Shown here piece after piece: positions 37,076-41,557 of a DNA stretch of 44,525 nt. The position numbers and the translations under genes are program-made. The DNA comes from Candidatus Thiodiazotropha sp. (ex Ustalcina ferruginea). GTDB lineage: Bacteria; Pseudomonadota; Gammaproteobacteria; Chromatiales; Chromatiaceae. The notes beneath the pieces were generated by a model. It worked only from the letters and a program-made list of their open reading frames with translations. It had not been told where the DNA came from and did no database searches. Within the stretch, counting starts at the first letter, position 1. Each line of letters opens with the position of its first letter. The stretch spans positions 1 to 44,525 of the forward strand of contig JAHXHU010000120.1 of assembly GCA_025656375.1 (NCBI GenBank), written 5' to 3'.

Positions 37076-37381
37076 ATGGCAAAGAAGAGCATGATTGCAC
37101 GCGAATTCAAACGTGCGCAGACAACTTCACGCTACGCTTCCAAGCGTAATGCACTGAAGGCTGTAGTTAAAAACCCTAACAGCAGTTTTGAAGAGATAGA
37201 GCAGGCAACTTTGAAACTACAGAAATTGCCCAGGGATGCAAGTCCGTCTCGAAAGCGAAATCGCTGTCGAGTGACCGGACGGCCTCATGGCGTGTACCGT
37301 AAATTCGGTCTCTGCAGAAATAAATTGCGCGAGGCGGCAATGCGTGGAGATATACCGGGGCTTGCTAAAGCGAGTTGGTAA
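37076..37381 (+). CDS. rpsN: 30S ribosomal protein S14, zinc-independent type
   Basis: S14 packs between the helices of the 30S head. The 101-residue product is the long form without a CxxC zinc site: [20 protein letters not shown] at the start and [20 protein letters not shown] in the C-terminal half. It follows rplE after 9 bp. The next gap, 100 bp, is the largest inside the spc set. Confidence 0.97.
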
Positions 37382-37393
37382 GAGTATTATTTT

Positions 37394-37460
37394 GCGCCTT
37401 TATCCGGAGCAGGTACTGGTCCGGTGGTTTTACTTTTTGGGTATCGCGCCATAAAGGCGG
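37394..37460 (+). promoter_or_regulatory. Structured leader between rpsN and rpsH
   Basis: CGCCTTTAT at 37395-37403 pairs perfectly with ATAAAGGCG at 37451-37459. Directly inside, CCGGA at 37404-37408 pairs with TCCGG at 37420-37424, and CAG/CTG continue the helix to a GTA loop. About 26 nt stay unpaired before the outer strand returns. The structure ends 22 bp before the rpsH start. It may be an S8 autoregulatory site moved from its E. coli position at rplE. That reading is inference. Confidence 0.5.
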
Positions 37461-37481
37461 ACTGACCTCAGGAGCTCTAAT

Positions 37482-37877
37482 ATGAGTATGTCAGATCCCA
37501 TCGCGGATATGCTTACGCGCATCCGCAATGGCCAGGCAGCTAAGAAAGCAACTGTCGAGCTGCCTTCCTCTAAGCAAAAGCTGGCAATTGCTAATCTTCT
37601 GAAAAATGAAGGATTTCTTAAGGAAGTCTCTGTAAATAGCGAATCAACTAAACCTATCCTTGTGCTAGAGTTGAGCTATTTTCAAGGTCGCCCCGTCATC
37701 GATATCATCAAGCGTGTAAGTCGTCCTGGTCTTCGTGTCTACAAAGGTAGAGACGAACTTCCTAAGGTGCGTGGTGGTCTTGGTCTGGCGATTATATCCA
37801 CTTCTCAAGGTGTGATGACAGACCGAGCTGCCCGAGAGATCGGACAGGGCGGAGAAGTTGTCGCCTTTGTCGCCTAG
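37482..37877 (+). CDS. rpsH: 30S ribosomal protein S8
   Basis: S8 binds the central domain of 16S rRNA and is the translational repressor of the spc operon in E. coli. The 131-residue product has [20 protein letters not shown] at the N terminus, ISRP-like region [19 protein letters not shown] and the ending [17 protein letters not shown] with a normal C terminus. AGGAG lies ahead of the start. Confidence 0.97.
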
Positions 37878-41273: not shown

Positions 41274-41336
41274 TGGCGCAGGGCTGTTACGTTAACGAAT
41301 CTTGACCAGTATGGAACATATTTTGGAGTCTATATC

Positions 41337-41450
41337 ATGAAAGTGCGTGCATCGGTAAAGAAAATCTGCCGCAATTGCAAGATCGTGCGCCGGAATGGCG
41401 TTGTCAGAGTGATCTGTAAAGAAGGACGCCATAAGCAGCGTCAGGGTTAA
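41337..41450 (+). CDS. rpmJ: 50S ribosomal protein L36, zinc-binding type
   Basis: This 37-residue gene was found by reading the gap after secY. The product begins [19 protein letters not shown] and ends [11 protein letters not shown]. It has the full zinc ligand set of the C+ form (CxxC at 11 and 14, C27 and H32). TTTTGGAG lies about 10 bp before the ATG. It closes the spc set as in E. coli. Confidence 0.95.
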
Positions 41451-41557
41451 TCACAGCGAAAAATTTCCTACGTCCGCTTGATAGAGGCGGTTGTGTAGGG
41501 TAGTATTGCTCGTTTACCTCTGGTGGAGAGCCAGGGGTTTCTTCAGGAGATTTAGAG
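41451..41557 (+). promoter_or_regulatory. Alpha operon leader, S4-binding type
   Basis: The 107-bp gap holds two hairpins: CCTAC (41467-41471) with GTAGG (41495-41499), enclosing a CCGC/GCGG stem, and ACCTCTGG (41516-41523) with CCAGGGGT (41531-41538). The second is followed by TTTCTT and could act as a terminator too. In E. coli, S4 binds a pseudoknot here and blocks rpsM translation. AGGAG lies ahead of rpsM. I could not trace the pseudoknot pairing itself. Confidence 0.55.

Follow-up and report, generated by a model that had tools for sequence, protein, structure and literature searches.

A conserved S8-site-like hairpin ahead of rpsH in the order Chromatiales, probably an S8 autorepressor leader

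Results

The window analysed here is a 44,525-nt contig of Candidatus Thiodiazotropha (Chromatiales). Ribosomal protein genes of the S10, spc, and alpha sets lie on this 44.5-kb stretch. Within the spc set, the ORF of rpsN (ribosomal protein S14; 37076–37381, + strand) is followed by rpsH (ribosomal protein S8; 37482–37877, + strand), the latter identified by its ORF and by whole-genome matches. The 100 nt between them are the largest gap inside the set from rplN to secY, consistent with the sequence-only reading, which had singled out this spacing. In E. coli, the rpsN-rpsH gap is 33 nt long and contains nothing resembling either the 9-bp complement or the leader element described below. Elsewhere in the window, the secY-rpsM gap (41274–41557) gives no match to the Rfam S4 leader (Alpha_RBS) at the gathering score.

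The gap contains a 30-nt hairpin, the rpsH-leader element, at 37439–37468 (+ strand), defined by its order-wide occurrence, covariation, and a covariance model. Specifically, pairs 37439-37468, 37440-37467, and 37441-37466 are followed by a bulge of U37442 and A37443, then by pairs 37444-37465 and 37445-37464, the bulged U37463, and pair 37446-37462. G37460 and A37461 lie between this last pair and the apical stem, which is formed by pairs 37447-37459, 37448-37458, 37449-37457, and 37450-37456. The rpsH Shine-Dalgarno sequence AGGAG (37470–37474, + strand) is directly 3' of the element. In all genus and family gaps the consensus is GGUAUC-(G/A)-hairpin-(C/U)-UGACC, then the Shine-Dalgarno sequence. 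The covariance model finds a single match in the window, with 41.3 bits, and a single copy in the whole genome. No Rfam 15 family matches the element; at the gathering score only tRNAs are found in the window, and at a relaxed threshold nothing real is added.

The paired structure of the element is strongly supported by covariation. Among 115 distinct element sequences, 95.7% of the cells are paired, and 82 cells have compensatory double changes, compared with 21.9 ± 3.6 after shuffling (0 of 500 shuffles reach 82). When the register is shifted by 1–3 columns, pairing drops to 22–56%. On a tree built from rpsH-rplF DNA, apical pair 2 has undergone at least 23 changes, with about nine independent co-changes and no opposite ones (p ~0.004, independent comparisons on the tree). 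The pair equivalent to 645-594 of 16S rRNA is G-C in 105 of the distinct sequences, G-U in 6, and A-U in 4, and is never broken. Long insertions occur in the apical loop at four loci (L136, L153, L154, and L158), and the core is unchanged there.

No variation is seen in the bases GG, UAUC, and U-GA-CC. Because this invariance exceeds the needs of a mere stem, it suggests recognition by a protein. The two core pairs beside the bulge never vary, so covariation gives no test of them, and we infer the core fold at these positions. The proposed arrangement, a 2-nt bulge including the equivalent of A642 and a single bulge at 595 with two pairs between, fits the invariant sequence, and pair 645-594 beside it covaries; the intervening pairs are themselves invariant, and RNAalifold leaves this loop open, favouring an internal loop with U37442-A37465. 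With no ligand bound, the core may contain an open loop, as this model predicts.

The element is present ahead of rpsH in 104 of the 105 loci sampled in the order Chromatiales. The sole exception (L162, genome G310) has a 39-nt gap and may represent a loss, a deep branch, or a taxonomic misplacement. A GTDB-wide pattern scan returned at least 117 matches, at least 99 of them directly before rpsH. The rpsH-adjacent matches include Sedimenticola, Ca. Thiodiazotropha, Allochromatium, Marichromatium, Thiocapsa, and symbionts of tubeworms and Solemya; those listed are Chromatiales-type organisms or unclassified or oddly binned MAGs. The 18 matches away from rpsH, among the matches listed, are scattered over taxa and look like chance. 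The element is absent from the ~45 loci sampled in other gammaproteobacterial families, most of which have short gaps. Covariance-model scans of 369 genomes of the class and 399 of the phylum gave nothing but weak matches outside the order; the 11 weak matches inspected, all from the class scan, do not lie near the start of rpsH. In most relatives the Shine-Dalgarno sequence begins 0–4 nt past the helix. In one genus (g267; L146, L147, L156, and L157) there are ~15 extra nucleotides between the two.

The sequence-only reading had drawn a different structure in the gap, in which a perfect outer helix of 9 bp stacks on a hairpin inside it. The complement is present, CGCCTTTAT (37395–37403) with ATAAAGGCG (37451–37459), but is not supported as a significant structure. 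The gap folds with ordinary energy (z = -1.24; 21 of 200 shuffles fold equally well). In an alignment of 21 congeners (18 distinct sequences), the outer helix pairs in 81.5% of the cells, compared with 82.4% in shuffles, and one pair with a double change is observed against 1.3 expected; compensatory changes are not in excess. The 5' arm of the helix runs into a promoter-like site, where it shares positions with the GC-rich discriminator. The 3' arm is part of the local hairpin 37447–37459, which is kept across the whole order. The sequence-only reading would have been refuted by helices without conservation or covariation in relatives. Both are strong for 37439–37468, but the outer helix does not pass this test, and we reject it as a conserved structure on its shuffle-level pairing in the genus. 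The conserved RNA in the gap is 37439–37468, not the two-helix stack.

Alternatively, the stack itself might be what functions, perhaps by forming as a second state at the expense of the 37447–37459 stem. The 3' arm AAAGGCG is common to both folds, and seven of the nine pairs are mostly retained in the genus. Nevertheless, the helix lacks covariation, and its last two pairs are disrupted in most of the 18 distinct sequences (15 and 10, respectively). It is not evident beyond the genus in the gaps inspected, and transcription from the internal promoter would start within its 5' arm. We consider this fold very improbable.

Two further features precede the element. A σ70-like promoter, TTGCTA-17-TATTAT (37362–37390, + strand) followed by the GC-rich discriminator TTTTGCGCC, was located by a consensus scan; with its discriminator the site covers 37362–37398. 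An exact TATAAT is present in 18 of 21 congeners, and in 36 of 88 order-wide gaps a TATAAT-like box has GCG or CGC within 4 nt (1.4 expected). This promoter with its GC-rich discriminator, like those under stringent control, is kept in the genus and recurs in other Chromatiales genera. A GC-rich hairpin, CCGGAGCAGGUACUGGUCCGG (37404–37424), with a U-rich tail extending the feature to 37438 (+ strand), is of a terminator-like or processing type. A strict scan for intrinsic terminators, defined by a GC-rich stem with a T run immediately after it, finds none in the window, while a looser scan finds the hairpin with its U-rich tail in 21 of 21 congeners and in 44 of 88 order-wide gaps (3.6 expected). 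In the genus it is placed between the TATAAT-like box and the leader element. It is terminator-like in several congeners, L005, L013, and L016 among them. Because RNA polymerase passes the hairpin first, S8 bound at the element cannot act on it as an attenuator. The hairpin may serve to terminate or to protect the upstream message, or may be a cleavage site. The processing site suggested by the sequence-only reading may thus exist as an additional feature of the gap.

The excess of both features over expectation would suit a gap that is mainly a junction of transcription and processing, with a stringent-type rpsH promoter, a hairpin ending or protecting the rplN-rpsN message, and an element that serves mRNA stability or as an RNase site. 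We regard this explanation as quite unlikely, since neither the promoter-like site nor the hairpin is detected in more than half of the gaps whereas the element is nearly universal, and the invariant unpaired bases suggest protein recognition over mere stability. The promoter-like site and the hairpin probably coexist with the leader.

We compared the core of the element, position by position, with the S8 site in helix 21 of the same genome's 16S rRNA. On its 5' side, the putative S8 core consists of GGUAUCG (37440–37446, + strand), which corresponds to 16S positions 639–645 (GAUACUG in this genome), and on its 3' side of CUGACC (37462–37467, + strand), which corresponds to 594–599 (UAAGUC). 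In 16S numbering the element therefore reads G639 G640 U641 A642 U643 C644 G645 and C594 U595 G596 A597 C598 C599. U641 and A642 are identical in the two RNAs. In the proposed fold, the element also has the 1-nt bulge at 595, and pairs 594-645, 596-644, 597-643, 598-640, and 599-639 are all retained with the same purine/pyrimidine orientation. The core pairs that differ do so by transitions on both sides, except 594-645, where U-G is replaced by C-G. With the strand order reversed, such that the 5' strand is 594–599, a U-U mismatch arises at 598-640, and this register was rejected by inspection.

Taken by itself, the S8-like geometry is not rare among random RNAs. A loose descriptor of the core proved unspecific as a search tool, with 135 matches in a 6-kb rRNA operon and 101 in shuffles. 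The argument for mimicry of the S8 site instead rests on the occurrence of this geometry in a covariation-supported hairpin at rpsH. The S8 encoded in the window retains both the STS motif and the tyrosine region, through which E. coli S8 contacts the RNA.

Every distinct copy of the element has A-U at pair 597-643, while the 16S rRNA of the same clade keeps G-C. In 399 Pseudomonadota genomes scanned by pattern, no 16S rRNA has A597-U643, and one genome has A597/C643. The 16S rRNA at L333 (G722) contains A597, G641, A642, and C643, an unusual S8 core triple. The departure of the element's 597-643 pair from all rRNA S8 sites examined would be compatible with another ligand, namely another spc protein (S14, L5, L6, L18, S5, or L15) or a complex, and a conserved RNA before a ribosomal protein gene in a multi-gene operon suits any protein encoded there. 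However, S8 is the known repressor of the spc operon in E. coli (PMC10931766), rpsH is immediately downstream of the element, and the proposed core has the geometry of an S8 site, including the equivalent of A642. A ligand other than S8 is therefore unlikely.

The S8 operator of E. coli lies at rplE, as the sequence-only reading noted. A descriptor of this site, which recovers the E. coli site exactly (+6/+78) as a positive control, has no match in the 41 family loci. An E. coli-type operator at the rplX-rplE junction or in the first rplE codons is rejected for these loci; the element instead sits at rpsH. Among 24 loci of other gammaproteobacterial families, only L047 (G277) has the E. coli-type rplE site, which indicates that this site is narrowly distributed.

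Discussion

The element at 37439–37468 is probably a lineage-specific, cis-acting leader at rpsH through which S8 represses its own synthesis in the order Chromatiales, which holds purple sulfur bacteria together with related symbionts. From sequence comparison we infer S8 as the ligand, repression as the outcome, and coupling to the downstream genes. The sequence-only reading had suggested that S8 might regulate itself directly at a site preceding rpsH; that idea stands as the best-supported reading, transferred from the helices on which it had been based to the S8-site-like hairpin.

In the proposed mechanism, S8 that is left free when it outnumbers 16S rRNA would bind the hairpin core that mimics 16S helix 21. 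Bound S8 would clamp the RNA beside the rpsH Shine-Dalgarno sequence and block initiation at rpsH. Because the end of the helix is close to the Shine-Dalgarno sequence, immediately ahead of it in the window and 0–4 nt away in most relatives, bound S8 would stand in the path of the 30S subunit and could act by steric block or by trapping. Direct occlusion is less obvious in genus g267, where the Shine-Dalgarno sequence is ~15 nt further on. The downstream products, L6, L18, S5, L30, L15, and SecY, would follow rpsH repression by translational coupling. S14, L5, L24, and L14 would be reached only through backward degradation of the message from rpsH. In E. coli, as the title of a work cited by PMC10931766 indicates, binding at rplE extends S8 control by retroregulation to the cistrons upstream.

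A broader proposal can be put forward tentatively, with rather less confidence than the leader itself. S8 feedback in Chromatiales may be exerted at rpsH and not at rplE, through a core with A597-U643 and U641, a combination without a counterpart in the rRNA sampled, such that S8 would read mRNA and rRNA by different base triples. L14, L24, L5, and S14 would then escape direct S8 control, and rpsH would have gained its own stringent-type promoter in many lineages.

According to a 2024 review, regulation of the spc operon beyond E. coli and Vibrio is unknown and phylogenetic studies are not advanced (PMC10931766). Within the literature covered, the element may be without earlier description. 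It offers a defined 30-nt candidate across a whole bacterial order with culturable members, such as Allochromatium. If S8 does act at the element, the leader would represent a second S8 operator with an independent location, and would offer a natural experiment on which bases can be exchanged in the S8 core.

The leader can be compared with three known systems. It resembles the ribosomal leaders catalogued in 2020 (PMC7247131), judged by the catalogue's table of new leaders, in being lineage-limited, covarying, and directly before a ribosomal protein gene; the difference is that this table contains no S8 leader. With the S8 site of 16S helix 21 its proposed core shares the geometry, and 12 of the 13 core positions agree as purine or pyrimidine. 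It differs from helix 21 in being mRNA with a permuted strand order, in the transition-equivalent replacements of pairs 596-644, 597-643, and 598-640, and in having U instead of A at 595.

The base triple of the E. coli spc mRNA site is A80-(A81-U11) (PMC4176348), which places the 640–644 strand first and the 595–598 strand second, the reverse of 16S rRNA. In its proposed core fold, the leader resembles the E. coli operator in this permutation, in the bulged N641-A642 on the 5' strand, in the two pairs that follow, in the bulged 595 on the 3' strand, and in the G-C at 645-594, and S8 translational autocontrol is expected for it as well. In contrast, the leader precedes rpsH whereas the E. coli site is at rplE; it is a compact 30-nt intergenic hairpin whereas the E. 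coli one is long and within rplE; and its 597-643 pair is A-U instead of G-C. The leader is thus not homologous to the E. coli operator by position or sequence, and in its proposed working it is like an S8 operator.
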